Below, in pieces: positions 2,319-18,945 of a stretch of DNA of 64,000 nt. Below the pieces are notes generated by a model, which made no database searches, had not been told where the DNA came from, and saw only the letters and a list, made by a program, of their open reading frames with translations. Source of the DNA: Paraeggerthella hongkongensis (GTDB taxonomy: Bacteria; Actinomycetota; Coriobacteriia; Coriobacteriales; Eggerthellaceae); contig NZ_PPTQ01000001.1 of the NCBI RefSeq assembly GCF_003340345.1, forward strand, positions 62,001 through 126,000, in the 5' to 3' direction. Each line of letters begins with the position of its first letter. The stretch's first letter is position 1. The position numbers were made by a program, and so were the translations under genes.

Positions 2319-3614
2319 TCAGCGCATGCTATCGACAGAGGGAAACTGCGACCCCGTCCAAAAGAAAACGATCAAACCGACAGCCACCAAAACAAGGGAC
2401 ACGGCCATATCCCGCTCGATCGTCATGCGTCCGAGAGAAGGGAACGCCGCCCTCAGAGGGCGCCGGTCGCTCAGAGAGAACAAGATCGGCGCCATGATGA
2501 GCACGTCCAAGCTTCCGTAAGAAATCGCACGGAGCCACAAAGGCGCTGCTGCATATTGAGCCGAACCCGACGAAGCATCGACGGTCAACGATATGCACAT
2601 GACGCTCGATGCCGCGAACAAGAGAACCAACGCCACGTCCCACGCAACACCGACCCATAGCGGGATTTTCGACAAGATCCGACCGATGCGCACAACGCCG
2701 ACGCCCTTCGCACCCGAAGGAGCAAGATCTTCGTTGCCCGAAGGCTCCGCCACCGAGCAAACCGCGGCCGAAGACGGCAGGGGCCGCCCCTCTTCGCCGA
2801 ATTCCAGCAGCGCGTCCGCAAACGATCGCTTGAGAGCGGCTACGTCGGCATAGCGATCCTCGGGATCGAACGACGCAGCACGTTCGATCACCCGTCGAAA
2901 TGGCTCGGGGACCGCAGGCGATCGAAAACCCACCTTGCGCACCCGGGCATCGGGGGTCCTCTCGGTCAGGTAGAAATACAAAAGCATGCCCAGAGCGTAA
3001 ACGTCGCTGCGCACATCGGTTTGCCCGAATCCAAATTGCTCGGGAGGAGCGTAAGCCTTCGTCCCGAAACGACACGTGTCCTCCTCGGCCCCTTCTTTAA
3101 ACGACCTCGCAATGCCGAAATCGATGATAGTCAGGCTATCTTGAGAGAGCATGATGTTCGAAGGCTTGAGATCACGGTGGATGATGGGAGGATCGAACGC
3201 TTCGTGCAGCTCCGCAACCGCGTCGCACAGCCGTGGAAACACGTCACAGGCGAGGGCTACGGAAGGATCGCAGCGATACACGACGTCCGAAAGCGTCTCC
3301 CCATCCACATGCTCCATGATCACGACGAACTCGCCGCCCGCCTCGCAGCATTCGATAATGCGCGGAAGATAGCGGAAACGGCGGCCCGACCTTTGCGCGC
3401 GGCACATGTTGCGATAGGCGGCTCCCAAGCCGGATGCGCGATCGATCCGCTTCCTGACGAACGGGCCGAGTTCGGCGCCGTTCGCGCCGACGAAGAATAC
3501 CCGCTCGGTCACTTCGTGAGCGGCGTTCTTCAAAACCGCGTCGACGCGGTAGCACTCGTCCCGCTCGAGCGCGTTCAAGTGTTCGGCCAATTCATCATGC
3601 ATAGTGAAACCCAT
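2319..3614 (-). CDS. Membrane-anchored Ser/Thr protein kinase
   Basis: This is a Hanks-type kinase of about 431 residues. The catalytic loop HRDLKPSN, the DFG motif in IIDFGIARS and the activation-segment end YAPPEQF are all present. The glycine-rich loop is poorly conserved; the likely ATP lysine is in VRKRI. The last third has three hydrophobic segments (starting near IPLWVGVAWDVALVLLF, SLDVLIMAPILF and MAVSLVLVAVGLIVFF), so the kinase domain faces the cytoplasm. No PASTA repeats are present. The start is uncertain: ATG 3614, ATG 3602, or a TTG at 3671 that would overlap the upstream gene's stop. It is the last gene of a three-gene minus-strand group. Substrates are unknown. Confidence 0.85.
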   Translation of the reverse strand: MGFTMHDELAEHLNALERDECYRVDAVLKNAAHEVTERVFFVGANGAELGPFVRKRIDRASGLGAAYRNMCRAQRSGRRFRYLPRIIECCEAGGEFVVIMEHVDGETLSDVVYRCDPSVALACDVFPRLCDAVAELHEAFDPPIIHRDLKPSNIMLSQDSLTIIDFGIARSFKEGAEEDTCRFGTKAYAPPEQFGFGQTDVRSDVYALGMLLYFYLTERTPDARVRKVGFRSPAVPEPFRRVIERAASFDPEDRYADVAALKRSFADALLEFGEEGRPLPSSAAVCSVAEPSGNEDLAPSGAKGVGVVRIGRILSKIPLWVGVAWDVALVLLFAASSVMCISLTVDASSGSAQYAAAPLWLRAISYGSLDVLIMAPILFSLSDRRPLRAAFPSLGRMTIERDMAVSLVLVAVGLIVFFWTGSQFPSVDSMR

Positions 3615-3664
3615 GGTAGCAGATCCCGAAGGATCGGAAGCGGACCATAGCGAACAGCGGCCCG

Positions 3665-4123
3665 TCAGCAAATGGTCTCTTCCCCAAAGCGATACAGCTC
3701 TTCATCGGTTTTTTGAAGACTGTGCCCGCGCTCAAGGCAGAATATGACTATCGCGTCGCGTCGATTCTTGCAGTAAAGCCCGTTCGATCCGGCAGCTTGC
3801 AGCAACCTGTTCGCCTCGCGAAGCGACAAGCGCATGGCGAAGGCGAGCTGCAGCACCTTGTTGCGCGAAGCGCCTCGCTGGCCCATGAATATCTGATAGC
3901 CGAACGTCTCGTTCAAACCCGCCTCTCGAACGACGCGAGCCCGCTCAAGACCCTTTTCGTCAAGAAGCTGTTCCAAGTAATCCGAAAGACTGCGCGTGGC
4001 AATGTGGTTCTCTTCGGCGAACCGTATCGGATCGGGAGCCTCGAGAAGCTCTTCGAGCAGTTCTTCGGTCAGAGACTCCTTCACGCGACGCTTCCTTTTC
4101 TTTCGTTTCTTCCTTGCTTCCAT
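3665..4123 (-). CDS. Small HTH-like protein paired with the kinase
   Basis: This is a predicted cytoplasmic protein of about 152 residues. It opens with a very basic stretch (MEARKKRKKRKRR), then an acidic helix (LTEELLEELLE). A helical domain follows (SDYLEQLLDEKGLERARVVR through QRGASRNKVLQLAFAMRLSL) that looks like a lambda-repressor-type HTH. It then has LLQAAGSNGLY and a C-terminal helix. From memory, small HTH proteins of this kind occur beside bacterial Ser/Thr kinases. Its stop at 3665 is almost in contact with the kinase frame, which suggests coupled expression. A GTG at 4156 is an alternative start; neither start has a good Shine-Dalgarno sequence. It may be a regulator or the kinase's phospho-target. 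Confidence 0.7.
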   Translation of the reverse strand: MEARKKRKKRKRRVKESLTEELLEELLEAPDPIRFAEENHIATRSLSDYLEQLLDEKGLERARVVREAGLNETFGYQIFMGQRGASRNKVLQLAFAMRLSLREANRLLQAAGSNGLYCKNRRDAIVIFCLERGHSLQKTDEELYRFGEETIC

Positions 4124-4168: not shown

Positions 4169-4948
4169 TTACGAGATATTCCATGCCACCTGGGAACTCT
4201 TGCTGAAAACCGACGAGTAGTAGAGGACCTTCGAAACATCGCCGTCAAAGTAGACGTTGCCGGAAACCGTTCCTCCCGCCGCAAGCGTTCCGCTGCTCAG
4301 AGCGTTCTCGCCATTCACGTAAACCGTTGTCGAGCGCTGCGCGCCGTTCGCATCCTGGCCTTTCCAGTCGAACATGTTGAACGACGCCTCGCTCGATCCT
4401 TTGTTGACGTAGGTTACCGTAACGCCGGTAATGGGCGATCCATCGTAATTAACCAGTCCGGTTTGCACGAAATCGACGCTCACCGTCAGTCCATTGCTCA
4501 AATCGGCTGCCGAGCCAACCGCCATGGAACTGTAGTCGGCCCCTTGTGCGGAAGCCGTATTCTCCTGAGCGCCCTGCAGCTGAGCCGAATCGGAAGAGCC
4601 CGTTACGCTCGGCCCCGAAAACGCTTCCTCAACAGCGGTGCTGTACGCATTCTGCGACGCGATCACGACGACGAGCGACAGCGAGCAAAGCACGATGCCG
4701 GCTATCGCCAAAGCCTTCCCTCTTTTCGTCTTGCGGTTCGCAGCCACCAATCCAACGATAGAGAACGGCAAGCCCAGCAACACAAGAAGAAACGCGATGT
4801 TGTTGATAATGGGCACGGCGGAAAGCGCAAGCGCAACAATGCTCAAGACAAATCCCGTCACCGCCATGGCGGACAAGGGCAGAGGAAGGGCATGGACCTG
4901 CATTCGGCCCATGCCGTCCGGGTATTCGGAGCTTCGATATTCGCGCAT
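4169..4948 (-). CDS. Membrane protein with DUF4190-like helices and an extracellular DUF4352-like domain
   Basis: The protein has 259 residues. Three hydrophobic segments lie at about residues 27-100, in the arrangement of DUF4190 proteins (ending GKALAIAGIVL). A Ser/Gln-rich linker follows, then a beta-rich C-terminal domain of about 120 residues (SNGLTVSVDFVQTGL, VTYVNKGSSEASFN) that resembles DUF4352/telokin-like domains. ATG 4948 has AAAGGA seven bases upstream. It is the first gene of the group followed by the HTH protein and the kinase, so it could sense or carry something at the cell surface for them. Function is unknown. Confidence 0.75.
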   Translation of the reverse strand: MREYRSSEYPDGMGRMQVHALPLPLSAMAVTGFVLSIVALALSAVPIINNIAFLLVLLGLPFSIVGLVAANRKTKRGKALAIAGIVLCSLSLVVVIASQNAYSTAVEEAFSGPSVTGSSDSAQLQGAQENTASAQGADYSSMAVGSAADLSNGLTVSVDFVQTGLVNYDGSPITGVTVTYVNKGSSEASFNMFDWKGQDANGAQRSTTVYVNGENALSSGTLAAGGTVSGNVYFDGDVSKVLYYSSVFSKSSQVAWNIS

Positions 4949-5195
4949 ATGGTTCCTTTCTTCATGAGGTTTTTGAAACCTTCACTGGGCAGATGCCGCA
5001 TATGCTAGGGAAACGTACCGATAAAAACATTAGCTCGCAGCTAAGTTCTCGACGGCGAACCGCTTGACGAAAAGACCGAGCCGCTGCGGAAGCGAGAGGC
5101 GCGCCCGCTTCCAAACTGCAAATTACAAATCGGAAACGACCGGTTCCCACGAGTTCCGTTCCGAAGATCCGTAGTAGAATACAATTGGATAAATC

Positions 5196-8171
5196 GTGCA
5201 CTTTATCGAGAATATTGTTCCATATCAGAAGCGAGCAAATTTGGCGCCCTCCAAAACCACGGATCGAGCATCTTCGAGCCTGCGAAGCAGGGTCGAGCGC
5301 AAAAAGCAGCACATACGCGCTTGGGAGGGAAACGACCCGTCCCGCAAACGACGCGTCTACTTCGGCTGTTACACGGCGGCCTTCATCGTTGTAGCGTTCA
5401 TCACGTTGTTCGTCTACCCGTCCAACGGCCGCGCCTTGATCTGGAACATCGACGGCATCGAGCAGTACTATCCCTTCTTCGTGTACGAAGGCCAATGGCT
5501 GAGGGAAATCGTCAGCAACCTGCTTTCCGGGCAAGGGCTCCAGATTCCGCTTTGGGTGCACGAACTGGGCTACGGCATGGACGTTCCCTCCACGCTCGAC
5601 ACGTTCTTCGACCCGCTCAACCTGCTTTCCGGCCTGTGCCCGGAACGCTATTCGGAATACCTCTTCCAATTCCTTGTGGTGTTTCGCCTGTACCTGGCCG
5701 GAGCTGCGTTCTCGCTTCTTGCCTTGCGCTTCAAAATCGGGCGGTTCCCCACCTTGGTAGGCGCCTTGCTGTACGCGCTGTGCGGCACCGCGATGGCGGT
5801 TGCCTACTGGCCGGCTGGAGCGTGGCCGCTCGTCTTGTTCCCCTTGCTGCTGCTCGGCGTGGAAAAGGTGCTCGCGAAAGAGCGGCCCTACACGTTCATC
5901 GCAGCAGTCGCCGCATTCTTCATCATATCCTATTACTTCTCGTACATGGCGTGCTTGCTGCTGCTCCCCTACTGCGCGGTGCGCGTCTTCCAAACGCAGA
6001 AAAGCGTCAACGCGGTGCGTTTCCTTGGTTGGACCCTGCGCTTTTTCGGCCTCCTGGCCATCGGCGTTTTGATCGCCTGCTTCGCGCTGGTTCCTTCGCT
6101 TGTCGGGTTGTTTGGACTTGAGCGATTCACCGACAACTCGGTCACCGTCCCGCTGTTCTATTCGCATCACTACTACACCTCGCTCGCATCCGGGTTCCTG
6201 AGCATGGCGGGCGTCGGGAGCGACTGCTACATCGGGTTCGGCGGACTGGCGTTTCTTTCCTGCGTCCTGCTCTTTTCGAAGCGCCGGCAGAACACGTCGC
6301 TCAAGATCGCGTTCGTCGCAGGCACCATCATGCTCATGGTCCCTGCCGTCGGAAGCTTCCTCAACGGCATGAACTACGCCACCAACCGTTGGGTATGGGC
6401 TTACGCCCTGGTGGTTTGCTTCATTGTGGCCCGCATGCTTCCGAGCATGCTCCATCTTGACAAGCGATCCGTAAAGGTGCTGGTCATCGCGTCTATCGCC
6501 TACGGGGCCATCGTCTTCGCCGTGGCGCCCATGCGCACCGAGGCCATGCTGGCCGCCGGTGTCGTTTTGGCGGCCACCCTGTTCGTCGTGGCGCAACGGG
6601 GCATGGCAGCCAAGACGCGACGGATGGCCGTCGTTTGCTGCCTGACGGCGGGCCTGACCGTGAACGCCTTCTATTTCGTATCCCCTGACGAAGGCGGCGT
6701 GGGCAAGCTCTCGTCGCCGTTGGGCTACGCCTACCCCCGCATCACGTCCGACTCCCCCAACCACCTGGTCTCGGACCTGAACGCTCCCGGGCTGTGGCGC
6801 TACGACGGAAGCTCGTCGGCCATCGAGCGCACGCGCAACGACAGCTTGGTGCTGGGGCTCAAGGGCTTCGATTTCTACAACAGCTCGTACAACAGCGCCA
6901 TCGACGACTTCCATACCGAGCTTGCCCTCAACAGGACCAACATCAACTTCTCGTACAACGATCTGGGAGGCCGAGCAATCCTGGAGTCGCTCATGGGCGT
7001 GAAATACTACCTGAGCACCGAAGCGGGCTTTCCCCCGGTGTACCTGTACGACGATCCGAACAAGATCGTAGCGTCGGGCGTCGTGCGCGACATCCCGTAC
7101 CAGGTGCACGAAGGATCCAACGTCCTGCCGCTGGCCTTCGCCTACGATTCGTACGTTCCCCGCAGCGAGTACCTTTCCCTCTCCCCCGCCCAGCGGCAGG
7201 AAGCGCTGCTGCAGGGCGTGGTGCTCGACGAGTCGTCGCTTCCCGCAACCGACAGAAAGCAGGAATCCCGCACGGTGCCCTCCGTCGTGTCGGCAAGCAA
7301 CGGCCTTTCGGTGGAAGACGGCGTGATACGCGTTTTGAAACCGGGAGCGACGCTGACCTTGAGCTTCGAAGGCATCGCCAACAGCGAGACGTACTTCTAC
7401 GTCGACGGACTGCACTTCAAAGGCGTGTCGCCTGTCGAAGAGTCCAAGCGCAAAGGGGAATTCGACAACCTCGCCTGGTTCCGCAAGGCGCTTCTGCTTC
7501 AAAAGGACATGAACTGGACCGAACCCCGACGCTACAATATTGGGCTCGGCTCCGACAAAGCGCCCGGCATGCGCCAGATCGACAACTACACGAACGCCTC
7601 CCATCTGTACGGCGGCAAGGACGAATGGCTGGTCAACATGGGGTATTCGAAAGAGCCCCAAACATCGATCACGCTGCACTTCGACCTCAAGGGAGACTAT
7701 CGCTTCACGAACATGTCGGTGGTTTGCCAGCCTGTGAAAAACATGTCGAACCGCATCGATGCGTTGAAAGCCGACCCGGTAGAAGATTTGAAGTTCGGCA
7801 CGAACGAGATCACGGCCTCGATCGACGCAAGCAAGCCCAAAGCCCTCTTCTTGAGCGTGCCGTACTCGAAGGGATGGACCGCCACGGTGGACGGAAAGCC
7901 CGCCGAAATCAAGCGGGCGAACACCGCGTTCATGGCCTTGGAGCTTGAACCCGGCCATCACGAGATCGAGCTGCGCTACCTGACCCCGGGCCTGCGAGAA
8001 GGCATGATCCTGTCGGGCATCGGCTTGGCCGCGCTTGCCGGGTTGGCGCTCGTGCGTCGCATCCTGAGCACCCGCGTACGGCGCGCGCAGACGACCGCAT
8101 CGGCATCGGCGCGCACGGACGTGCAGGCAAGCCCGCAGCGGCAAGAAGAGCACGAACGGAATTCGAGGTAA
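5196..8171 (+). CDS. YfhO-family polytopic membrane protein (predicted GT-C glycosyltransferase)
   Basis: This is a 991-residue membrane protein. YfhO proteins are GT-C-like enzymes; in Bacillus and Listeria they act with a CsbB-type glycosyltransferase and a small flippase to put sugars on teichoic acid outside the membrane. Seen here are a first membrane helix at about residues 55-75, the motif NIDGIEQYYPFF just after it, many helices up to about residue 510, a long outer domain with the typical ending SVPYSKGWTATVDGKPAEI, and a last helix before a basic tail. The GTG start at 5196 is uncertain; no clear ribosome site precedes it. It leads the glycan cassette, 4 bases ahead of the ATP-grasp gene. 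Confidence 0.85.
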   Translation: MHFIENIVPYQKRANLAPSKTTDRASSSLRSRVERKKQHIRAWEGNDPSRKRRVYFGCYTAAFIVVAFITLFVYPSNGRALIWNIDGIEQYYPFFVYEGQWLREIVSNLLSGQGLQIPLWVHELGYGMDVPSTLDTFFDPLNLLSGLCPERYSEYLFQFLVVFRLYLAGAAFSLLALRFKIGRFPTLVGALLYALCGTAMAVAYWPAGAWPLVLFPLLLLGVEKVLAKERPYTFIAAVAAFFIISYYFSYMACLLLLPYCAVRVFQTQKSVNAVRFLGWTLRFFGLLAIGVLIACFALVPSLVGLFGLERFTDNSVTVPLFYSHHYYTSLASGFLSMAGVGSDCYIGFGGLAFLSCVLLFSKRRQNTSLKIAFVAGTIMLMVPAVGSFLNGMNYATNRWVWAYALVVCFIVARMLPSMLHLDKRSVKVLVIASIAYGAIVFAVAPMRTEAMLAAGVVLAATLFVVAQRGMAAKTRRMAVVCCLTAGLTVNAFYFVSPDEGGVGKLSSPLGYAYPRITSDSPNHLVSDLNAPGLWRYDGSSSAIERTRNDSLVLGLKGFDFYNSSYNSAIDDFHTELALNRTNINFSYNDLGGRAILESLMGVKYYLSTEAGFPPVYLYDDPNKIVASGVVRDIPYQVHEGSNVLPLAFAYDSYVPRSEYLSLSPAQRQEALLQGVVLDESSLPATDRKQESRTVPSVVSASNGLSVEDGVIRVLKPGATLTLSFEGIANSETYFYVDGLHFKGVSPVEESKRKGEFDNLAWFRKALLLQKDMNWTEPRRYNIGLGSDKAPGMRQIDNYTNASHLYGGKDEWLVNMGYSKEPQTSITLHFDLKGDYRFTNMSVVCQPVKNMSNRIDALKADPVEDLKFGTNEITASIDASKPKALFLSVPYSKGWTATVDGKPAEIKRANTAFMALELEPGHHEIELRYLTPGLREGMILSGIGLAALAGLALVRRILSTRVRRAQTTASASARTDVQASPQRQEEHERNSR

Positions 8172-8175
8172 CCCC

Positions 8176-9492
8176 ATGCACGACCAACGGAAAACCCTTT
8201 TGATACTCGGCTCGATGGACGAGTTCGCGCTTCTGGTGCAACGCGCCAAGGAACGCGGCTGTCGCGTGCTCGTGGCCGACGGCTACGAGCACGGCCCCGC
8301 TCGCGCGCATGCGGATGCCTCGTTCACGATTCCCGTCACGGACACCGAAGCCTTGGTCAACCTATGTCGCGACGAAGCCGTCGACGCGCTGATCACCTCG
8401 TTTTCCGACGTGCTGTTCGAAGAGGGCTGCCGCGTTGCGCATGCGGCGGGCCTTCCCGCCCCCTGTTCGCTGGACAAGTTGGAATTCCTCAGGAACAAGC
8501 AGCTCATGAAGAACATGTTCGACCAGTTGGGCGTGCCCTACCCGAACAGCTGCGTCGTGCCGCTCGACCAGGTCGAACGGGCGTGCGAGTCCCTGCGCTT
8601 CCCCTGCGTCATCAAGCCGGTCGATGCCTACGGCTCGTACGGCGTCCGCGTCGTGCGCACCGCAGTCGAAGCGATCGAATCGGCTGCCTCGGTTGCAGAG
8701 GAATCGAGGCGCGCGAACAGCGTGGTCCTCGAAGAGTACAACGGCGGGCACGAGTTCAACATGATCACCTGGGCGTCGCACGGGCGCGTGTTCCCCGTTT
8801 CCGTAGCCGACCGCGAAAAGACCGTGTGCGCGTTCGAGGATCTTCCCCACGTCAGCAGGATCGTGTACCCGAGTCGCTTCACCGACGAGGTCCTGCCCGA
8901 TGCGCTCGCATACGCGCAGCGCATCGTCGAGTTCGCGGGGATCGAGCACGGCCCTTTATGCATGCAGTTTTTCTGGTCCCCCGACTCGGGCATACACGTA
9001 TGCGAGGTGACGGGCCGCGTGTTCGGCTACGAGCACGAGCTGCTGGAATACGCGTCCGGCTTGTCCGTGGAGGATCTGCTGCTTGACACGGCGCTCGACC
9101 GCGACGCCCTTGCACGCCGCCTTGAAGCCCACGACGCGCGCTCCATGCCGAAATGCAGCTGCGGGCTGTACTTTCACGCGCGCGACGGCATCGTGGCAAG
9201 CCTTGACGCCGCGCAAGCCGCGCTGCAAGGCCCTTGCGTGCAGGAGACCCTTCTGTACTACGCACCAGGGCAAACGGTCAAGAACGCGCGCGGCGGACAG
9301 CCCTATGCCGCGCGCGCGTTCCTTGCAGCGGAGTCGTACGGCGAGCTGGACGCCGCAAGCGCGCGGATGTTCGCAAACTTCTCCATCGCCGACCCCGACG
9401 GCAAGGACCTCGCCGTGCCCAACCGGCTTCCCAGCGCCTGCCGCGCATCCCAAGCGAGCGAAACGACTGCGAAGGAGCAGCCTGTCTCATGA
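8176..9492 (+). CDS. ATP-grasp ligase
   Basis: This is a 438-residue ATP-grasp protein of the carbamoyl-phosphate synthase/biotin carboxylase type. It starts with a Rossmann-like pre-ATP-grasp domain (LLILGSMDEFALL). The nucleotide site includes NKQLMKNMFDQLGVPYP and CVIKPVDAYGSYGVRVV, and the metal-site region is HVCEVTGRVFGYEHELLEY. Members join a carboxylate to an amine or thiol using ATP. The substrate cannot be read from the sequence. Context (amino-sugar aminotransferase, glycosyltransferase, decarboxylase) suggests it attaches an amino acid or other acid to an amino sugar. Its stop overlaps the next start as ATGA. Confidence 0.85.
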   Translation: MHDQRKTLLILGSMDEFALLVQRAKERGCRVLVADGYEHGPARAHADASFTIPVTDTEALVNLCRDEAVDALITSFSDVLFEEGCRVAHAAGLPAPCSLDKLEFLRNKQLMKNMFDQLGVPYPNSCVVPLDQVERACESLRFPCVIKPVDAYGSYGVRVVRTAVEAIESAASVAEESRRANSVVLEEYNGGHEFNMITWASHGRVFPVSVADREKTVCAFEDLPHVSRIVYPSRFTDEVLPDALAYAQRIVEFAGIEHGPLCMQFFWSPDSGIHVCEVTGRVFGYEHELLEYASGLSVEDLLLDTALDRDALARRLEAHDARSMPKCSCGLYFHARDGIVASLDAAQAALQGPCVQETLLYYAPGQTVKNARGGQPYAARAFLAAESYGELDAASARMFANFSIADPDGKDLAVPNRLPSACRASQASETTAKEQPVS

Positions 9493-10442
9493 ACATATCC
9501 GTTGTCATCCCCTGCTACTATTCGGAGCGCATGATCGGCGACGTGGTGCGCATGACCCGCACCGAGCTGGTCAATGCCGGCTATGATTACGAGTTCATCC
9601 TGGTCAACGACGGATCGAAAGACGGAACGTTCCGGGAGATTTCGAAGCTGTGCGCCGAGGACGAGCGCGTGAAGGGCATCGACCTCATGCGCAACTTCGG
9701 CCAGCACAACGCCATCATGGCCGGTCTGCGCGAGGCGAGCGGAGATGCGGTCATGCTCATGGACGACGACATGCAAACGCACCCGTCGCAATGCCTCGCG
9801 CTCATCGCGGGCCTGGAAGACGGCGTCGACGTGGTGTTCGCCGCCTTTCGCCAGCATCGGGAGAACTGGTACCGCAGGCTGGGCTCGCGCTTCGCCATGT
9901 TCACCATCCGCGTGCTGGCTGGATGCCCGAAAGGCGTCACCGACAGCAACTTCTTGATCATGCGCCGCTGCGTGAGCGACGTCATGGTCGAGTACTCAAG
10001 CGCCTCGGTGTACGTGCAGGGCCTCGTATTCCGCACGACCGACCGCATAGTGAACGTGGAAGTGGAGCATTACGACCGCGCGGAAGGCCAGTCGGGATAC
10101 ACCCTGAAAAGCCTGCTGCGACTGTGGTCGACCATCCTGAACTTCTCGGTAACGCCGCTGCGCATCGCTTCGGTGCTGGGCCTGCTCATGGGCGGTGCGG
10201 GACTCGTGGGCGCGATCTGGCTGTTCTTCGAGCGCTTGCACAACCCCACGATGCCGATGGGCTGGGCCTCGGTCATGGTGACCATGCTGGTGTGCTCGGG
10301 CGTCATCATGCTGTTCATGGGCGTGATCGGGGAATACGTCGGCCGCTTGTTCATGACGACCAACAAGAACCCCCAGTTTCTGATCAGGACTCGCTGCAAC
10401 GTCTCGTCCGAGAACCAAATCGGCGAAGGAGCCTCTCGATGA
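9489..10442 (+). CDS. Polyprenyl-phosphate glycosyltransferase (GT2, GtrB/ArnC/CsbB type)
   Basis: This is a 317-residue GT2 enzyme that loads a sugar from a nucleotide donor onto undecaprenyl phosphate at the inner membrane face. It begins MNISVVIPCYYSE, has ILVNDGSKDGT and the metal-binding MLMDDDMQTHP, and then two C-terminal membrane helices (RIASVLGLLMGGAGLVGAIW and a second ending MGVIGEYVGR), the hallmark layout of GtrB, ArnC and CsbB. ATG 9489 overlaps the ATP-grasp stop. In the three-component model it supplies the lipid-linked sugar that the SMR-like pair flips and the YfhO protein transfers outside. The exact sugar is unknown. Confidence 0.93.
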   Translation: MNISVVIPCYYSERMIGDVVRMTRTELVNAGYDYEFILVNDGSKDGTFREISKLCAEDERVKGIDLMRNFGQHNAIMAGLREASGDAVMLMDDDMQTHPSQCLALIAGLEDGVDVVFAAFRQHRENWYRRLGSRFAMFTIRVLAGCPKGVTDSNFLIMRRCVSDVMVEYSSASVYVQGLVFRTTDRIVNVEVEHYDRAEGQSGYTLKSLLRLWSTILNFSVTPLRIASVLGLLMGGAGLVGAIWLFFERLHNPTMPMGWASVMVTMLVCSGVIMLFMGVIGEYVGRLFMTTNKNPQFLIRTRCNVSSENQIGEGASR

Positions 10443-11698
10443 ACGAATCCCTCTTCCAGCTGGAAACGCCCTGCTTCGTGTTCGACGAAACGGAGCTGGC
10501 GGACAACTTCCACGACTTCGCCCGCGCGCTGCATGCGCATTGGAGCCCCGCCTCCGAGGTTGCCTACTCGATCAAGACCAACCCGTTGCCCTGGATTCTT
10601 CGCACGGCGCGCACGTGCGGCTGCATGGCGGAAGCCGTCTCGGACGAGGAGTACGAATTGGCGCTCGCATGCGGATTCGAACCGCAGCGCATCGTCTTCA
10701 ACGGGCCCATCAAGGGACGGGCGCGCTTCGAATCGGCGCTTGAGCAGGGAAGCCTGGTCAACCTGGACTCGGCGCGCGAGCTGCGCTGGCTTGCGGAGAT
10801 CGCGCGCACGACCGATCGCGTGCTTTCCGTCGGCCTGCGTGCGAGCATCGACCTCGAGTCGCACTGCCCCGGTCAAACCGTCACGGGAGCCGCGGGCGGA
10901 CGTTTCGGCTATTGCTACGAGAACGGCGAGCTGGCGCGCGCCGTGCAGGCCGTCCGCGCGATCGGGCCGAACGTGCGCATCGCAGGGCTGCACATGCACG
11001 TGACCACGCGCAGCCGCACGGTCGAGGTGTACCGCGCCCTTGCGCGCCATGCGGCCGTCATAGCTCGCGAACTCGACCTTGACCTGGAATTCGTCGACAT
11101 CGGCGGAGGCTTCTTCGGCGGAGGCGAAGCGAACCGCGGAGCCTACGACGCTTACGCCCAGGCCATCGCCGCCGAGCTGTCCGCCACGTTCGACCCCGAG
11201 CGCACGCGGCTGCTGGTGGAGCCGGGCGGGGCCGTGATCTGCACCCCCGGACGCTACGTTGGACGCGTGCTCGACGCGAAGGACACCACCTACGATCGAT
11301 TCGTGACATGCGATTTGTCCCGCATCAATATCGACCACGAGATGAAGAAGACCGCCTACGCCTACGAGATCGTCCGGCACGATCCCGAAGCCGCCCCGCG
11401 CCGCCTGGCGCGCCAAGTGCTCTGCGGCTACACCTGCATGGAAAGCGATCGGCTCTGCATCCTGGAGAACGAGGCGGAACTCGCAGAAGGCGACCTGATC
11501 GTCATCAAGCACGCAGGCGCCTATTCGATGTCGTTCACGCCCGGGTTCTTCATTCGCTTCGCCCCGCACGTCTACGTCCGCAAAGCCGACGGAAGCTTCA
11601 CGGACGTCGGCGAAGCTTCCTGGCGACCCGCAAGGCCCGGCGCCCCAAGCGCCGCCACCTTCGACAACGCATCCGCTGAAAGCGAGGAATCCTCATGA
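10439..11698 (+). CDS. Fold-type III PLP-dependent amino-acid decarboxylase
   Basis: This 419-residue protein belongs to the ornithine/diaminopimelate decarboxylase family (alanine-racemase-type barrel plus a beta domain). The PLP lysine is in VAYSIKTNP near residue 44. The phosphate-binding glycine loop is DIGGGFFGG, followed by LLVEPGGAV, and the active-site cysteine/aspartate motif is CGYTCMESDRL. The family removes the alpha-carboxyl group from basic or acidic amino acids or their conjugates. GAAGGAG sits 8 bases before ATG 10439, which overlaps the previous stop. Next to an ATP-grasp ligase it recalls the BtrJ/BtrK pair of butirosin synthesis, but no carrier protein is present here. The substrate is unknown. 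Confidence 0.9.
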   Translation: MNESLFQLETPCFVFDETELADNFHDFARALHAHWSPASEVAYSIKTNPLPWILRTARTCGCMAEAVSDEEYELALACGFEPQRIVFNGPIKGRARFESALEQGSLVNLDSARELRWLAEIARTTDRVLSVGLRASIDLESHCPGQTVTGAAGGRFGYCYENGELARAVQAVRAIGPNVRIAGLHMHVTTRSRTVEVYRALARHAAVIARELDLDLEFVDIGGGFFGGGEANRGAYDAYAQAIAAELSATFDPERTRLLVEPGGAVICTPGRYVGRVLDAKDTTYDRFVTCDLSRINIDHEMKKTAYAYEIVRHDPEAAPRRLARQVLCGYTCMESDRLCILENEAELAEGDLIVIKHAGAYSMSFTPGFFIRFAPHVYVRKADGSFTDVGEASWRPARPGAPSAATFDNASAESEESS

Positions 11699-12834
11699 TC
11701 ACCTTCAACGAGCCGCCTCGCGTGCCGCAAGCGTACGACTACATCCGAAACGCCATCGAAAGCGGGAACGTCTGCGGGGACGGCCCCTACACGAAGCGCT
11801 GCAGCGAGTGGATCGAGCAGCGCTTCGACGTGCAGAAATCCCTGCTCACCACAAGCGGCACGGCCGCGCTCGAAATGGCGGCGCTCCTGTGCCGCATCAA
11901 GCCGGGCGACGAGGTGATCCTGCCCAGCTACACGTTCTCGTCCACCGCGACCGCCTTCGTGCTGGCGGGCGCCAAGCTTGTGTTCGTGGATATACGCCCC
12001 GACACCATGAACATCGACGAAGATCAGGTTGAGCAGGCGATTACCGAGCGCACTCGCGCTATCGTGGTCGTGCATTACGCGGGCGTGGCGTGCAACATGG
12101 ACGCCATCAACGGCATCGCGAACAGCCGCGGCATCCTGGTGGTCGAAGACGCTGCCCAGGGCGTTATGAGCACCTACAAAGGGCAAGCCTTGGGCACTAT
12201 CGGGGACTTCGGCTGCTTCTCGTTCCATGAGACGAAGAACTACTCCATGGGCGAGGGCGGCGCGTTTTTGACCAAGGACCCCTCCTACAACGAAGCTGCC
12301 GAGATCCTGCGCGAGAAAGGCACCGACCGGTCGCGGTTCTTCCGCGGCCAGGTGGACAAGTACAGTTGGGTCGACTACGGCTCGAGCTACCTGCCCAGCG
12401 AGCTGAACGCGGCCTATCTGTGGGCGCAGCTCGAACGCGCAGACGAGATCAACGACGACCGTCTGGCCACTTGGAACGCCTACTACGAGGCGCTTGCCCC
12501 GTACGCCGAAGCGAAAGCGTGCTCGCTGCCCGTCGTACCGCCCGACTGCACCCACAACGCCCACATGTTCTACCTCAAGTGCAGGGACCTCGAGCAGCGC
12601 AGCGCGTTCATCGCGCACATGCGCGAACAGGGAGTTCTCTGCGTGTTCCATTACGTTCCGCTACATTCCTCCGTTGCGGGCAAGAAGTTCGGAAGGTTCT
12701 TCGGAGAAGATCGTCACACCACGAAGGAAAGCGAGCGCCTGGTACGCCTGCCCCTGTACTACGCGCTTTCCGAAGAGCATCGCGCGCACGTCATCGAAGC
12801 TGCGTGCGCGTTCTTCGCTTCTGCGGGTCGGTAA
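11695..12834 (+). CDS. rffA: dTDP-4-keto-6-deoxy-D-glucose 4-aminotransferase (RffA/WecE type)
   Basis: This is a 379-residue DegT/DnrJ/EryC1/StrS-family aminotransferase. It resembles enterobacterial RffA/WecE over its whole length, for example in CGDGPYTKRC, VVVHYAGVACNMD, DAAQGVMSTYKG and FRGQVDKYSW. The PLP lysine is in SFHETKNYS. RffA makes dTDP-4-amino-4,6-dideoxygalactose from dTDP-4-keto-6-deoxyglucose with glutamate. Such a close relative of a Gram-negative enzyme suggests horizontal transfer or a shared ancient sugar route. The genes for the dTDP-glucose precursor are not in the window. Its start overlaps the decarboxylase stop as ATGA. Confidence 0.93.
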   Translation: MITFNEPPRVPQAYDYIRNAIESGNVCGDGPYTKRCSEWIEQRFDVQKSLLTTSGTAALEMAALLCRIKPGDEVILPSYTFSSTATAFVLAGAKLVFVDIRPDTMNIDEDQVEQAITERTRAIVVVHYAGVACNMDAINGIANSRGILVVEDAAQGVMSTYKGQALGTIGDFGCFSFHETKNYSMGEGGAFLTKDPSYNEAAEILREKGTDRSRFFRGQVDKYSWVDYGSSYLPSELNAAYLWAQLERADEINDDRLATWNAYYEALAPYAEAKACSLPVVPPDCTHNAHMFYLKCRDLEQRSAFIAHMREQGVLCVFHYVPLHSSVAGKKFGRFFGEDRHTTKESERLVRLPLYYALSEEHRAHVIEAACAFFASAGR

Positions 12835-12836
12835 TC

Positions 12837-13238
12837 GTGAAGCACGTCAACCTCAAATCGTTCGTCTCGCTGCACCTGCTGTTCGTGCTGTACTCGCTCA
12901 CCGACCTGTTCGGCAAGATGGCCGCCTCGTTCGCGTTCGACGACGTGCGATTCTACCTGCTCTACGCCGCTGTGCTGGCGGTGCTGTTCCTGTACGCCAT
13001 CGGCTGGCAGCAGGTGATAAAGCGCCTGCCGTTGACCACGGCGTTCTCCAACCGGGCCATCACGGTGTTCTGGGGACTGGTTTGGGGAGTGCTCTTCTTC
13101 CAAGAGGAGCTGAACTTCCTGAAGGTGCTCGGCGCGGCCATCGTCGTAGCCGGCGTGGTGCTGTACTCGCGCGCCGACGCAGCCGACGCGGATCAGCCCG
13201 AACCGGCGAAGAAGGCGGTCGACCATGCCCTTCGCTGA
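12837..13238 (+). CDS. SMR/EamA-like small membrane protein, first flippase half
   Basis: This 133-residue protein has four hydrophobic helices and an SMR/EamA-like closing segment (ITVFWGLVWGVLFFQEELNF, then a helix ending VVLYSRA). Small paired proteins of this fold include ArnE/ArnF, which flip undecaprenyl-phosphate-aminoarabinose. It starts with GTG two bases after the aminotransferase stop and overlaps the next gene by 14 bases. Position and pairing make a lipid-linked-sugar flippase the best guess. A drug exporter is possible but less likely in this context. Confidence 0.8.
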   Translation: MKHVNLKSFVSLHLLFVLYSLTDLFGKMAASFAFDDVRFYLLYAAVLAVLFLYAIGWQQVIKRLPLTTAFSNRAITVFWGLVWGVLFFQEELNFLKVLGAAIVVAGVVLYSRADAADADQPEPAKKAVDHALR

Positions 13239-13584
13239 GATGATCCCCTACATCGCCATCGGCGCGCTCGGCGTGTTCGTCAGTTCCATCGCGCAGGTCA
13301 TGCTCAAGAAAGAAGCGGTGAAGCCGCATGGCAGCTTCATGCAGGAATACCTCAACCCGCTGGTGATCGGCGGATACGTGCTCATGTTGGCGTCCACGTT
13401 CATGCTGGTGGTGTCGTTTCGCGGCATCCCGCTGTCCATGGCGCCGGTGCTCGAGGCGACCAGCTACCTCTACGTCACCGTGTTCGGTGTCTTCATCTTC
13501 AAGGAGCGGGTCAGCCGCCCCAAGGCGATCGCGCTCGCGGTCATCATGCTGGGCATCCTCGTGTACGCAGCAGGCTTGTGGTAG
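13225..13584 (+). CDS. SMR/EamA-like small membrane protein, second flippase half
   Basis: This 119-residue, four-helix protein is an SMR-type partner of the preceding gene. Typical features are SSIAQVMLKKEAVKPHG in the first helix region and LEATSYLYVTVFGVFIFKE in the third and fourth. The length and the Lys/Glu placement match ArnF-like proteins. The 14-base overlap implies a heterodimer made at equal levels. It ends the cassette; a long perfect hairpin starts 5 bases after the stop. Confidence 0.82.
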   Translation: MPFAEMIPYIAIGALGVFVSSIAQVMLKKEAVKPHGSFMQEYLNPLVIGGYVLMLASTFMLVVSFRGIPLSMAPVLEATSYLYVTVFGVFIFKERVSRPKAIALAVIMLGILVYAAGLW

Positions 13585-13588
13585 AAAC

Positions 13589-13646
13589 GATTGTCGCCCG
13601 AAACGTACGGTTTCCAAGCGAAAACCGTACGTTTCGGGCGACAATC
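13589..13646. terminator. 25-bp perfect inverted repeat (bidirectional terminator candidate)
   Basis: The left arm 13589-13613 and right arm 13622-13646 are exact reverse complements over 25 bases, with the 8-base loop CCAAGCGA. The key core is CGCCCGAAACGTACGG. A short T run follows on the plus strand (ATCTTTCC). It lies between convergent genes, so it probably ends the glycan operon, but the stem is much longer than usual. Confidence 0.85.
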
Positions 13647-13669
13647 TTTCCGAGGGCGCCGTTGAAGCC

Positions 13670-13700
13670 GATCGGGCCGGGAAACGAGGCCGGCCCGATC
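13670..13700 (-). terminator. Hairpin ending the acyl-CoA ligase operon
   Basis: GATCGGGCCGG (13670-13680) pairs with CCGGCCCGATC (13690-13700) over 11 bp around a 9-base loop. It begins 5 bases after the ligase stop on the minus strand and is suited to terminate that operon. Confidence 0.7.
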
Positions 13701-13704
13701 GCCG

Positions 13705-15378
13705 TTAGTCCTCGATACCGTCGTTGTTGCGGATCAGCTTGCGCTTGATTTTGCCGCCGATGGTCTTGGGAAGCTCGTCGACGAACTCCACGATGCGCGG
13801 GTACTTGTACGGGGCGGTCACGTGCTTCACGTGGTTCTGCAGCTCCTTGACCAGCTCGTCGGACGGCTCGTAGCCCCGAGCGAGCACGATCGTGGCCTTG
13901 ACCACCTTGCCGCGGATGGGATCGGGCGCAGCCGTCACGGCGCATTCGACCACCGCCGGATGCTCGATGAGCGCGCTTTCCACCTCGAAAGGCCCAATGC
14001 GGTAGCCCGAGCACTTGATGACGTCGTCGTTGCGGCCGACGAAGAAGCAGTACCCGTCCGAGTCGCGCCACGCCATGTCGTGCAGGTTGTAGTACGCGCC
14101 GCCCACGGCTTCGCGCGTACGCTCTTCGTCCTGGTAGTACCCTACGAACAGGCCCGGCGGATACGCTTCCTTCAGGCCCGTGACGCAGATCGCGCCCTCT
14201 TCGCCATCGGGGACCTCCACGCCGTCGTCATCGAGCAACTTGACGTTCAAAAGCGGGGACGGCTTGCCCATGGAGCCGGGACGCGGATCGATCCACGGGA
14301 ACGTCGCCAGCAGCACCGGGCCCTCCGTCTGGCCGAAGCCCTCGCGGATCTTCTTGCCCGTCAGCCGCTCCCACGCAAGCGTCACCTCGGCGTTGAGCGG
14401 CTCCCCTGCCGTGGCGAACGTGTGCACGCTCGACAGGTCGTAGGCGCTCACGTCTTCCTGCAGCATGAAGCGGTACATGGTGGGCGGCGCGCAGAACGTG
14501 GTCAGCTTATGATCCTGGATCTTCTGCAGCAGCTTTTCCGGCACGAACTTGTCCATGTCGTAGGCGAACACGGTGGCGCCGGCAATCCACTGCCCGTAGA
14601 TCTTGCCCCAGCCGAACTTCGCCCAGCCGCTGTCGGTCACGCTCATGTGCAGCGCGTTCTCCTCGACCTGCTGCCAGTACTTCGCCGTGATGATATGGCC
14701 CAGAGGATGCGCGAAGTTGTGGCACACGGCCTTCGCCATGCCGGTGGTGCCCGACGTGAAGTAGATGAGCATGATGTCCTTGCTCGTGACGCCGGCTTCG
14801 CCCACGGGGCGCTCGAACTCGTCGGACTCGCCCTCGATCAGCTGGTCAAACGTGGTCCAACCGTCTCGTTGACCGGCCACGATGATGCGATTTGCGATGG
14901 ACGGCGACTCGGGCAGCGCCTCCTCCATCTGCTCGCACACGTACTCGTCGTTCACGCATACGACGGCCTTCACCTGCGCGCTGGCCGCACGGTACACGAT
15001 GTCCTTCTTCGTCAGCTGCAACGACGCCGGAATGATGGTGGCGCCCAGCTTGCACAGCGCCACGGCGCACACCCAGTACTCCCAGCGGCGGCGCAGGATC
15101 ATCATGACCACGTCGCCCTTGCCGATGCCCAGCCGCGCGAAGCCGTGAGCGGCGCGGTTCGATAGACGCGCAAGCTCCTCGAACGTGAACGCATGCTCGG
15201 CATCGTGGTCGTCGCACCACACGAGCGCCTGCTTGCCCGGCTCCACGCGCGCCCATTCGTCCACTACGTCGAAACCGAAGTTGAACGCCTCGGGCACGTC
15301 GATCTGAAAGTTCTCGTAAAAGTCCTCGTACGAATCGAACTCGATGCGCGGACAGTATTTCTTCAAGATGTGATTCAC
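13705..15378 (-). CDS. AMP-forming acyl-CoA ligase (acetyl/medium-chain acyl-CoA synthetase type), copy 1
   Basis: This is a 557-residue ANL-superfamily enzyme that activates a carboxylic acid to an acyl-AMP and then an acyl-CoA. Motifs are YFTSGTTGMAK (P-loop), EGFGQTEG (A5), the hinge region VGRNDDVIKCSGYRIG (A8), and the catalytic lysine in LPKTIGGKIKRK near the C terminus. Overall it is closest to AcsM-like medium-chain ligases. The second ligase at 19665-21443 is a clear paralogue. It lies downstream of the 2-oxoacid oxidoreductase genes and the HTH-cupin gene on the same strand. The acid substrate is not known; branched-chain or aryl acids fit the context. Confidence 0.92.
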   Translation of the reverse strand: MNHILKKYCPRIEFDSYEDFYENFQIDVPEAFNFGFDVVDEWARVEPGKQALVWCDDHDAEHAFTFEELARLSNRAAHGFARLGIGKGDVVMMILRRRWEYWVCAVALCKLGATIIPASLQLTKKDIVYRAASAQVKAVVCVNDEYVCEQMEEALPESPSIANRIIVAGQRDGWTTFDQLIEGESDEFERPVGEAGVTSKDIMLIYFTSGTTGMAKAVCHNFAHPLGHIITAKYWQQVEENALHMSVTDSGWAKFGWGKIYGQWIAGATVFAYDMDKFVPEKLLQKIQDHKLTTFCAPPTMYRFMLQEDVSAYDLSSVHTFATAGEPLNAEVTLAWERLTGKKIREGFGQTEGPVLLATFPWIDPRPGSMGKPSPLLNVKLLDDDGVEVPDGEEGAICVTGLKEAYPPGLFVGYYQDEERTREAVGGAYYNLHDMAWRDSDGYCFFVGRNDDVIKCSGYRIGPFEVESALIEHPAVVECAVTAAPDPIRGKVVKATIVLARGYEPSDELVKELQNHVKHVTAPYKYPRIVEFVDELPKTIGGKIKRKLIRNNDGIED

Positions 15379-15430
15379 GGGCGCAGCTTTCCTTTCTCAC
15401 GCCTTATCGGTCCAGCAAGGTCAGCGAGAA

Positions 15431-15525
15431 GCGCTGCGGTGGCTCAGATTGCCGTGAAAGCCCGAGGAAGCGTACCGTAGGTACGCGACGAGGGCTTGGA
15501 GCGGCAAGATGGGCCGCCGCAGCGC
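15431..15525. repeat. 95-base interrupted palindrome between HTH-cupin and ligase genes
   Basis: Four nested paired blocks fold this stretch into one long interrupted hairpin: GCGCTGCGGTGGC with GCCGCCGCAGCGC (15431-15443/15513-15525), TTGCCG with CGGCAA (15449-15454/15502-15507), AAGCCC with GGGCTT (15458-15463/15492-15497), and GCGTACC with GGTACGC (15470-15476/15480-15486). The apical loop is GTA. No reading frame explains it. It could be a dispersed palindromic repeat or a structured RNA in the leader of the ligase. Confidence 0.75.
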
Positions 15526-15541
15526 TTCGCAGCGTCGAGCG

Positions 15542-15568
15542 GATCCGCCGTTCGGAGAACGGCGGATC
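15542..15568 (-). terminator. Hairpin after the HTH-cupin gene
   Basis: GATCCGCCGTTC (15542-15553) and GAACGGCGGATC (15557-15568) form a perfect 12-bp stem with loop GGA. It begins a few bases after the HTH-cupin stop (15572) on the minus strand, so it may separate that gene from the ligase. Confidence 0.65.
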
Positions 15569-15571
15569 GGG

Positions 15572-16123
15572 TCACTCCGCGATGATGGTGACGAACCTGG
15601 CGGGCACGTCGCTTCCGCAACGCTGACCGTGCGGATGCTCCGGGTTGAAGTAGATGCTGTCTCCGGCGTGCAGCTCGAACTCCTTGTCCTCCCACGTCAC
15701 GACGACCGTGCCCTCGAGGACCAGGTTGAACTCCTGGCCGGTGTGCGTAACCAGCTTCGCCGGCTCGTCCGACGGATCAAGCACCACCAGCAAAGGCTGC
15801 ATGATCTTGCCGGTGTAGCGCCAAGCCAGATCCTCGAAGTGGTAGCCGGGGTAGCGATCGACCTCGCGGCCCTCCCCCTTCTTCACCACCTGGTAGGTGT
15901 TCAGCTTCGCCGCGGTTCCCGTCAGGATCTCGGTAAATTCCACGCCGAAGGTGTGCGCCAGGTGGTAAATGGCGGAAATAGGCACGTCAGCGCCTGTTTC
16001 CTCCCATTCGAGGTACTTCTCCAGCGGCACTTCAAGCTCGGCGGCCATATCCTCGGGCGTGACGTCGCACGCCTCGCGCAGACCCTTGATGCGCAGGCCG
16101 ATCTCGGCCAGTTCAGCTACCAT
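15572..16123 (-). CDS. HTH-cupin transcriptional regulator, copy 1
   Basis: The protein has 183 residues. An XRE-type HTH covers about residues 5-65 (IGLRIKGLREACDVTPEDMA, then an atypical recognition region). A C-terminal cupin barrel covers about residues 105-183 (THTGQEFNLVLEGTVVV, then NPEHPHGQRC). Such proteins are usually cytoplasmic regulators whose cupin binds a small ligand. This one sits between the oxidoreductase and ligase genes, so it probably controls them in response to a substrate acid or CoA ester. A paralogue is at 21565-22149. Confidence 0.88.
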   Translation of the reverse strand: MVAELAEIGLRIKGLREACDVTPEDMAAELEVPLEKYLEWEETGADVPISAIYHLAHTFGVEFTEILTGTAAKLNTYQVVKKGEGREVDRYPGYHFEDLAWRYTGKIMQPLLVVLDPSDEPAKLVTHTGQEFNLVLEGTVVVTWEDKEFELHAGDSIYFNPEHPHGQRCGSDVPARFVTIIAE

Positions 16124-16196
16124 GTGGCTCCCTCCACCTCACTCGCCCGCGCCGCGCGCGGGCGGGGCGCTCTTGCGATGCGCCCCTCGGCACGAC

Positions 16197-16733
16197 CTAC
16201 GACTTCATTCCCAGCTCAAGCGCGGCAAGGTTCGCCGGGAGCTTCGCGATTTTCTTCGCGGGCACGCACTTCTCGACAGCCGCCTTAAGCGTCTCTTCGG
16301 AACAGAACCCGGTTTCGGCGAACAGCTTCCCTACCAGGATCACGTTCGCCAGGCCCTTGTAGCCGTTCTCTTCGGCCAGCTGCGTGGCCGGAACGGCGAA
16401 CACGTTCACGCCGGGAAGCTCGGGGATGCGCTGCACCAGCGTGGAGTCCACCACCACGGTGCCGCCTTCCTGCACGCTGCCCTCGAACTTGTCGAGCGAA
16501 GGCTGGTTCATGACCACCAGCACGTCGGGCGTCAGCACGAGCGGGCTGCCGATGGGATCGTCGGCCAGGCACACGCTGCAGTTCGCGGTGCCGCCGCGCA
16601 TCTCGGGGCCGTAGGAGGGCAGCCACGAAACCTCGCGGTCCTCGATCAGGCCGGCGATGGCGATGATCTTGCCGGCGAACAGGATGCCCTGGCCGCCGAA
16701 GCCCGCCAGAACGGCGTTCATGGTGCGGCTCAT
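16197..16733 (-). CDS. 2-oxoacid:ferredoxin oxidoreductase, gamma subunit
   Basis: This 178-residue protein is the gamma domain of the pyruvate/ketoisovalerate ferredoxin oxidoreductase family. It starts with AVLAGFGGQGILFAGK and has PSYGPEMRGGTANCSV and VMNQPSLDKF. It forms part of the catalytic heteromultimer and helps bind CoA. ATG 16733 overlaps the beta-subunit stop as ATGA. The family can use 2-oxoisovalerate, indolepyruvate or 2-oxoglutarate, and this subunit does not settle which. Confidence 0.93.
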   Translation of the reverse strand: MSRTMNAVLAGFGGQGILFAGKIIAIAGLIEDREVSWLPSYGPEMRGGTANCSVCLADDPIGSPLVLTPDVLVVMNQPSLDKFEGSVQEGGTVVVDSTLVQRIPELPGVNVFAVPATQLAEENGYKGLANVILVGKLFAETGFCSEETLKAAVEKCVPAKKIAKLPANLAALELGMKS

Positions 16734-17569: not shown

Positions 17570-17570
17570 G

Positions 17571-18635: not shown

Positions 18636-18637
18636 AG

Positions 18638-18844
18638 CTACCTCACCACCGTAATCGCGACGTCGGGACACATGAGCGCGCAGGACATGCAGCCCGTGCA
18701 GCGCTCGGCATCGATCAGGCGCGCCGGATGGTAGCCCTTCGCGGTGATGCGCTCGTGATCGAGTTCGATGATGTGCGTCGGGCACGCGTCGACGCACAGG
18801 CCGCACCCTTTGCAAAAATGATCGTCTACCAGTATTCTCGGCAT
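18638..18844 (-). CDS. 2[4Fe-4S] ferredoxin-type delta subunit
   Basis: This 68-residue protein has two clusters of cysteines: CKGCGLCVDACP and CTGCMSCALMCP. It would carry electrons from the oxidoreductase to free ferredoxin. ATG 18844 has GGAAGG about 8 bases upstream. It is the first gene of the oxidoreductase group, followed 2 bases later by the alpha subunit. Confidence 0.95.
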   Translation of the reverse strand: MPRILVDDHFCKGCGLCVDACPTHIIELDHERITAKGYHPARLIDAERCTGCMSCALMCPDVAITVVR

Positions 18845-18945
18845 GATGGAACCTTCCTCGTCTTGTAGGCTCCTGCGCCGCGCCGCGGGCACAGGAGCTC
18901 AACGCGCATCAGACGGACAAACCCGCTGAAACGCGTACTCTCGCA

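Follow-up and report, generated by a model that had tools for sequence, protein, structure and literature searches.

A seven-gene YfhO-type glycosylation operon of Paraeggerthella hongkongensis predicted to attach an amino acid to a 4-amino sugar and perhaps, like some of its relatives, to decarboxylate it

Multi-component transmembrane glycosylation in Gram-positive bacteria combines a GT2 glycosyltransferase, a flippase and a GT-C glycosyltransferase, with Wzx-type flippases also mentioned in the part of the source available (PMC8035078). The CsbB/GtcA/YfhO systems of Bacillus, Listeria and Staphylococcus follow this plan, with a GT2 that loads undecaprenyl phosphate, a small membrane flippase and YfhO as the GT-C (excerpts of PMC8035078). 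Here we analyze an operon of seven plus-strand open reading frames (ORFs) at positions 5196-13584 of a 64,000-nucleotide stretch of the P. hongkongensis contig NZ_PPTQ01000001.1 (hereafter the window), with place and strand as given in a preliminary description made from the DNA sequence alone. The operon resembles the CsbB/GtcA/YfhO systems in general plan, but it has a pair of EamA/SMR-like proteins instead of a GtrA-type flippase, and it carries its own WecE-type aminotransferase, an ATP-grasp ligase and a pyridoxal 5'-phosphate (PLP) decarboxylase (Table 1).

Several other described systems share parts of this set. The Arn pathway, which adds 4-amino-4-deoxy-L-arabinose to lipid A, uses a 4-amino sugar, the GT2 ArnC, paired flippase halves and transfer by a GT-C. 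The operon is like it in having an ArnC-like GT2 and paired small halves, but the ArnC, ArnE and ArnF models all score below cut-off, the sugar would be a hexose rather than a pentose, and its amine would be modified by a ligase. ArnA, ArnD and ArnT are not among the seven operon proteins, the rest of the genome not having been searched for them. In enterobacterial common antigen, WecE forms the deoxythymidine diphosphate (dTDP) derivative of 4-amino-4,6-dideoxygalactose (Fuc4N), and WecD acetylates the Fuc4N amine; in the operon, by our inference, an amino-acid ligase takes the place of that acetylation. In the butirosin pathway the ligase BtrJ attaches glutamate. BtrK, a decarboxylase of the same fold as that of the operon, turns it into a 4-aminobutyryl (GABA) group (for BtrK, the portion of PMC7857480 at hand); the operon differs in having no carrier protein, its target would be a sugar amine, and BtrJ is likened here by function alone. 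The N-citrylornithine decarboxylase FigC/FslC is the top Protein Data Bank (PDB) match of a profile of operon-type decarboxylases and likewise has Met after the catalytic Cys, but FigC retains an arginine that is replaced by Gly or Ala in the operon-type enzymes, and its partner ligase differs. Finally, the Pgf proteins of Streptococcus mutans (PgfS, PgfM1, PgfE and PgfM2) supply the nearest names for genes 1 and 3, but PgfE is a UDP-glucose 4-epimerase and the part of the Pgf source available gives no amino-acid-tailoring gene (PMC5856776). Among the titles and abstract openings of the open-licence literature we found no description of the gene set as a whole.

We lean towards the view that the product of the operon is an exported 4-amino-4,6-dideoxy sugar in N-aminoacylated form. 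Its precursor, dTDP-4-keto-6-deoxyglucose, would come from RmlA and RmlB, whose genes lie elsewhere in the genome, and WecE would aminate it to dTDP-Fuc4N. The ATP-grasp ligase would then activate the carboxylate of an amino acid with ATP and join it as an amide to the 4-amine of Fuc4N. Glutamate is the likeliest candidate, joined via its side-chain carboxylate. Where its gene is present, as in the window, the PLP decarboxylase would strip off the alpha-carboxylate that is still free on the attached residue and leave a terminal primary amine, giving a 4-aminobutyryl group from glutamate or a beta-alanyl group from aspartate. Once loaded on undecaprenyl phosphate by the GT2, the sugar would be flipped by the EamA/SMR pair, and YfhO, or another GT-C at some other loci, would transfer it to a surface polymer or protein.

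Conservation of the gene set was surveyed in 138 genomes of the family, and the decarboxylase was also searched for in 396 sampled genomes of the phylum. Close homologues of gene 4, the decarboxylase, occur in nine of the family genomes (45-100% identity, the next matches being 21-29%), and close homologues of gene 2, the ligase, in 16 (38-100% identity and at least 284 bits, the next match being 26% and 116 bits). Seven genomes have both, every time less than 3 kb apart (hypergeometric P = 2e-6, a value that assumes independent genomes, which these are not). The other two decarboxylases lie on a 6.4-kb contig that also encodes a GT2 and a flippase pair (L063) and in a locus (L069) where the gene overlaps a different, PylC-like ATP-grasp gene. 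At E 1e-70 the decarboxylase was found in three of the 396 phylum genomes, which by position are the window and loci L080 and L082.

A pattern scan with the ATP-grasp alignment over 84,980 species, each represented by a single genome, returned 55 loci, assigned by record title to Coriobacteriia, Lachnospiraceae, Gemmiger, Fournierella, Blautia, Erysipelotrichaceae and others. The window and two loci of the family that the scan did not list (L076 and L078) bring the total to 58 distinct loci; 13 stretches duplicating named loci were left out, and so were L063 and L069, neither of which has this ATP-grasp. Genes were counted within 12 kb of the ATP-grasp gene with profiles and thresholds of our own, and several of the loci are on short contigs, so that absences are soft. 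A GT2 was present in 47 of the 58 loci, both flippase-like halves in 42 and WecE in 39, followed by RmlB (17), RmlA (15), the decarboxylase (14), a GltS-like gene (10) and an extra short-chain dehydrogenase/reductase (SDR; 7). Forty loci combine the GT2 with both halves, 30 of these have WecE as well, and all 14 decarboxylase loci have the GT2 and both halves. Gene order is shuffled from locus to locus. We take WecE, ATP-grasp, GT2 and the EamA pair as the core of the set, whereas the GT-C is exchangeable and the decarboxylase optional. It weighs against our reading that WecE is not within 12 kb in 19 of the 58 loci, ten of which have the GT2 and the pair; for two of the loci lacking a nearby WecE (L104 and L092) the gene is found elsewhere in the genome.

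The preliminary description proposed that ligase and decarboxylase genes had been added to a glycosylation operon, and held that a lack of co-conservation with the glycosylation genes would refute this. Co-conservation is what both the family survey and the 58 loci show, and chance proximity of the two genes is rejected on the same grounds. The ATP-grasp gene, however, belongs to the core, whereas the decarboxylase gene is optional (14 of the 58 loci).

Other genes recur in these neighborhoods. An SDR/epimerase-like gene is present in seven of the 14 decarboxylase loci (L104:6188-7213, L080, L082, L083, L089, L093 and L109) and in none of the other 44. A family of proteins of about 335 residues is encoded within 8 kb of the ATP-grasp gene in 15 loci, L120, L103, L108 and L110 among them; the L120 member (L120:8985-9989) sits between the GT2 and ATP-grasp genes, and a representative of the family matched nothing in Pfam or NCBIfam. 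L069:7929-10167 is a second ligase-decarboxylase pairing, with DegT-type aminotransferases nearby; the 19 kb of this locus contain no GT2 or flippase pair by our profiles.

Gene 5 passes the cut-offs of two NCBIfam models (NF008687, 611.3 bits against 375; TIGR02379, 604.2 against 434.85), and RmlB and RmlA, makers of the WecE substrate, are found above cut-off on contig C10 of the host genome (2.86 Mb in 53 contigs). Twenty of the 27 family genomes with WecE encode an ATP-grasp homologue within 15 kb on the same contig, although homologues were accepted here at E values up to 1e-10 and many are only 21-31% identical. The WecD acetyltransferase was above cut-off in none of the 138 family genomes, and the weak matches in 24 of them reach at most 30.6 bits against a cut-off of 195.1. 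Such a weak match adjoins WecE at G089:C54:1267-3007 (28.8 bits) and at G101:C1:1637420-1639238 (20.5 bits). Because no ATP-grasp homologue was found on the G089 contig, acetylation may replace aminoacylation in that genome.

Gene 2 is above the Pfam cut-off for ATP-grasp_4 (33.9 bits against 27) and below those for LAL_C2 (21.9 against 29.4) and PylC-like_N. Its AlphaFold2 model is good (mean predicted local distance difference test, pLDDT, 88.8), and the best fold match in the PDB is the L-amino acid ligase 3vot chain B (E 4e-27; template modeling scores 0.73 and 0.81; 19% identity). By this fold match gene 2 resembles amino-acid ligases, and in the proposed pathway it would ligate an amino acid through a carboxylate. 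Diamines are made by enzymes related in fold to the decarboxylase, and one could imagine that the decarboxylase yields a diamine or other amine which the ligase joins to the carboxylate of a uronic acid, WecE serving a separate purpose. This seems to us very improbable, as the seven proteins include no uronate-forming enzyme, WecE provides an amine rather than a carboxylate, and the likeness of the ligase is to amino-acid ligases.

Gene 4 matches Pfam Orn_Arg_deC_N (106 bits) and scores 154.5 bits with the lysA model TIGR01048, well short of its cut-off of 297.9. The lysA gene proper is on contig C13 (460 bits with TIGR01048); this, together with motifs unlike those of lysA, rules out gene 4 as the lysA of the host. 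The motifs were compared between 16 decarboxylases (from 14 of the 58 loci plus L063 and L069) and 21 lysA-like proteins from the loci returned by a family-wide search for decarboxylase homologues, the lysA label being our own. All 16 decarboxylases have C[MV][ED][SM]D in the C-loop and EPG[GA] at the motif sites, with Met after the catalytic Cys in 13; all 21 lysA-like proteins have CES[GS]D and EPGR, a combination seen in none of the 16, although in three of these an EPGR string occurs away from the motif site. Alternatively, a lysA paralogue and an ATP-grasp gene from unrelated metabolism might have strayed into an otherwise ordinary YfhO/GT2 glycosylation operon. That would account for the curated models of both enzymes staying below cut-off, and for lysA being the top NCBIfam name for gene 4. 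Retention across 58 loci in shuffled orders, the distinct motifs and the above-cut-off lysA elsewhere in the genome make such an origin a poor prospect.

A profile built from nine of the decarboxylases found FigC/FslC first among PDB sequences (160.8 bits), ahead of plant and methanogen diaminopimelate decarboxylases (DapDC; 137-147 bits) and BtrK (125 bits). Some results speak for a closer tie to DapDC and so weigh against the assignment we favor. Gene 4 alone is nearest to plant DapDC (106.8 bits; FigC 91.8), plant DapDC is also first by fold, from a poor model of gene 4 (pLDDT 67.9) that does not allow the active site to be read, and NCBIfam ranks lysA over FslC (107 bits against 500 for the latter), both being below cut-off. 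In addition, the arginine of EPGR is absent from the decarboxylases, which have Gly or Ala in its place. By our count in the alignment of the profile with FigC, this arginine corresponds to FigC R290, which is described as touching the PLP phosphate through its backbone in the section of the FigC paper at our disposal (PMC7857480), and its loss therefore need not abolish activity.

FigC, SbnH, AcsE, MccE and BtrK are grouped outside polyamine synthesis, with citryl-amino acids as substrates of FigC and SbnH and a glutamylated carrier protein as that of BtrK, in the text of that paper available (PMC7857480). By analogy, we infer that decarboxylases of the gene 4 type act on an amino-acid conjugate. 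The order of the genes does not fix that of the steps, and the amino acid ligases of known structure that share the fold of gene 2 use free amino acids. The decarboxylase could instead come before the ligase, converting a free amino acid to an acid (e.g., GABA) that the ligase would join to the sugar, giving the same product. We regard this order as unlikely, if less so than the two schemes above. FigC, the best PDB match of the profile, acts on a conjugate, as far as the available part of its description goes (PMC7857480), and in 44 of the 58 loci (some of them on short contigs) the ligase stands without a decarboxylase within 12 kb, so an undecarboxylated acid would have to be used there.

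As to which amino acid is attached, the ligate-then-decarboxylate pathway has a candidate clue in a GltS-like gene (Na+/glutamate symporter family) found near the ATP-grasp gene in the ten loci counted above, in seven of them within 55 bases as measured between the ends of the profile matches. Mapped on a tree of the ATP-grasp proteins made by a quick method, its presence requires five or more changes. The Pfam family PF03616 is rare, occurring in seven of the 138 family genomes; three of the seven have it in ATP-grasp loci, and in a fourth (G030) its neighbors encode a PylC-like ATP-grasp protein and a DegT aminotransferase. Of 246 genomes of the class, 12 matched the GltS-like profile: all five strong matches (at least 460 bits) are in these ATP-grasp loci, and neither of two ATP-grasp profiles matched within 1.5 kb of the seven weak ones (78-188 bits). 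Because this rare gene recurs near the ATP-grasp gene with several changes on the tree, we favor glutamate ahead of other amino acids with moderate confidence. Since decarboxylation of a conjugate needs a free alpha-carboxylate, the amide would be made through the side chain.

Weighing against glutamate, the GltS-like proteins are divergent, seven of the ten loci reaching the PF03616 threshold and three missing it (among the seven, L104 was scored as L064 and L109 as G005). Of the two GHG motifs present in a canonical relative they keep one and lack the second, and the window genome itself has no PF03616 gene. The GltS-like profile had no match among PDB sequences at E 0.01. This divergent subfamily is found near ATP-grasp genes of both the operon's own and the PylC-like families in sugar aminotransferase loci (L094, L101, L104, L109, L134 and others). 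Taken to its full extent, the scheme would give gut Coriobacteriia and Clostridia an undescribed class of surface sugar, an undecaprenyl phosphate-borne Fuc4N with a gamma-glutamyl group, decarboxylated in some species to a 4-aminobutyryl (GABA) amide; we put this forward tentatively, as a doubtful possibility.

The YfhO match of gene 1 (Pfam cut-off 28.5) is the only one in the host genome; the protein has 13 hydrophobic segments by hydropathy count, and its top NCBIfam name is PgfM2 at 99.7 bits, far under the cut-off of 1500. Its start is uncertain, the N-terminus being unlike that of a 95% identical P. hongkongensis protein, and the true start may be downstream of position 5196. Gene 3 is above the Pfam GT2 cut-off (88.9 bits), with PgfS (154.9 bits) and ArnC (149.7 bits) as its nearest NCBIfam models, both far below cut-off. 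Elsewhere, YfhO was counted within 12 kb in 17 of the 58 ATP-grasp loci, eight of these matches being weak (98-167 bits), and a putative GT-C of about 600 residues in 15, again with eight weak (110-269 bits). This family (L064:10855-12687 and relatives), which we presume to be GT-C, may replace YfhO; two members had no Pfam match and one no NCBIfam match. The GT-C of the gene set thus appears to be exchangeable, and YfhO not always to fill the role.

Genes 6 and 7 match EamA/SMR rather than GtrA in Pfam, gene 6 above the EamA cut-off of 28.2 (33.9 bits) and gene 7 just below it (26.6 bits). Neither passes the ArnE or ArnF models (ArnF, 21.7 bits against 99; ArnE, for gene 7, 23.5 against 92), and a crude hydropathy count gave two and three segments in the two small proteins, not four in each. 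Set against the flippase assignment is a GtrA-type gene elsewhere in the host genome (contig C5, 97 bits), whose product could be the flippase of YfhO in place of the EamA/SMR pair. Because the ArnE/ArnF models are not passed and this gene exists, the role of the pair as flippase is uncertain. The Pfam and NCBIfam matches agree with the preliminary description in recognizing a YfhO-type system, an Arn-like pair of small proteins and a WecE sugar enzyme. Its overall interpretation survives in outline, with corrections: the core is defined, the decarboxylase is optional, YfhO would serve as GT-C in the window operon but not at every locus, and the halves are EamA/SMR-like without passing the ArnE/ArnF models.

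Like Pgf in S. mutans, the operon may serve a glycoprotein instead of a teichoic acid or polysaccharide, a choice of acceptor that is compatible with the proposed pathway. PgfM2 and PgfS are the best, if far from sufficient, NCBIfam names of genes 1 and 3, and modification of Cnm and WapA by the Pgf system is described in the accessible portion of its source (PMC5856776). CsbB/YfhO pairs of other Gram-positives, on the other hand, act on teichoic acids in the source as far as available (PMC8035078), and there is no acceptor gene among the seven proteins; a protein acceptor is possible but not what we would expect.

The coordinates of the operon are given in Table 1. Stop-to-start spacings across it are +4, -4, -4, -4, +2 and -14 bases, so that four of the six junctions overlap by 4 or 14 bases, in agreement with the preliminary account that most do. 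In the nearest named genome, a P. hongkongensis locus (L079) has the same seven genes in unchanged order, its ATP-grasp being 95% identical to that of the window. The flanking genes that we take as real, at 4169-4948 and 13705-15378, are both on the strand opposite to the operon; the product of the former has no Pfam match at E 1e-10, and that of the latter has AMP-binding domains. A sigma-70-like promoter scan of 4800-13900 gave no match (1.4 expected), and terminator-like matches in the same interval (8, against 8.8 in shuffles) are not in excess.

Table 1. Genes of the putative aminoacyl-sugar operon (positions in the window)
Feature	Position	Strand	Length and basis
Gene 1, YfhO-type GT-C membrane glycosyltransferase	5196..8171	+	991 aa; Pfam YfhO 346 bits
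Gene 2, ATP-grasp ligase, L-amino-acid-ligase-like	8176..9492	+	438 aa; ATP-grasp_4 above cut-off
Gene 3, GT2, probably polyprenyl-phosphate glycosyltransferase, ArnC/PgfS type	9489..10442	+	317 aa; Pfam GT2
Gene 4, PLP decarboxylase, DapDC/ornithine type (alanine-racemase fold)	10439..11698	+	419 aa; Pfam Orn_Arg_deC_N
Gene 5, WecE/RffA-type dTDP-4-amino-4,6-dideoxygalactose transaminase	11695..12834	+	379 aa; two NCBIfam models; Pfam DegT/DnrJ
Gene 6, EamA/SMR-like half 1	12837..13238	+	133 aa; GTG start; Pfam EamA
Gene 7, EamA/SMR-like half 2	13225..13584	+	119 aa; Pfam EamA just under cut-off

Other parts of the window also deserve mention. On the minus strand at 13705-21443, a cupin gene and genes for a 2-oxoacid:ferredoxin oxidoreductase (POR and TPP domains) lie between two AMP-binding, acyl-CoA-synthetase-like genes. 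Near the operon, at 2319-3671 on the minus strand, is a gene with a protein-kinase domain. The selenocysteine-specific elongation factor SelB is encoded at 34-2070, and the host genome therefore probably makes selenoproteins.

The charge of the surface influences how a cell encounters host peptides, phages and neighboring cells. If the proposed pathway is correct, it would link to surface glycosylation a ligate-then-decarboxylate chemistry that belongs to antibiotic and siderophore assembly, and the gene signature of WecE, ATP-grasp, GT2 and EamA pair, with or without the decarboxylase, would predict sugars of this kind. The decarboxylase gene would then be a possible switch, in common gut bacteria, between a surface sugar bearing an amino-acid group and one bearing a cationic group.

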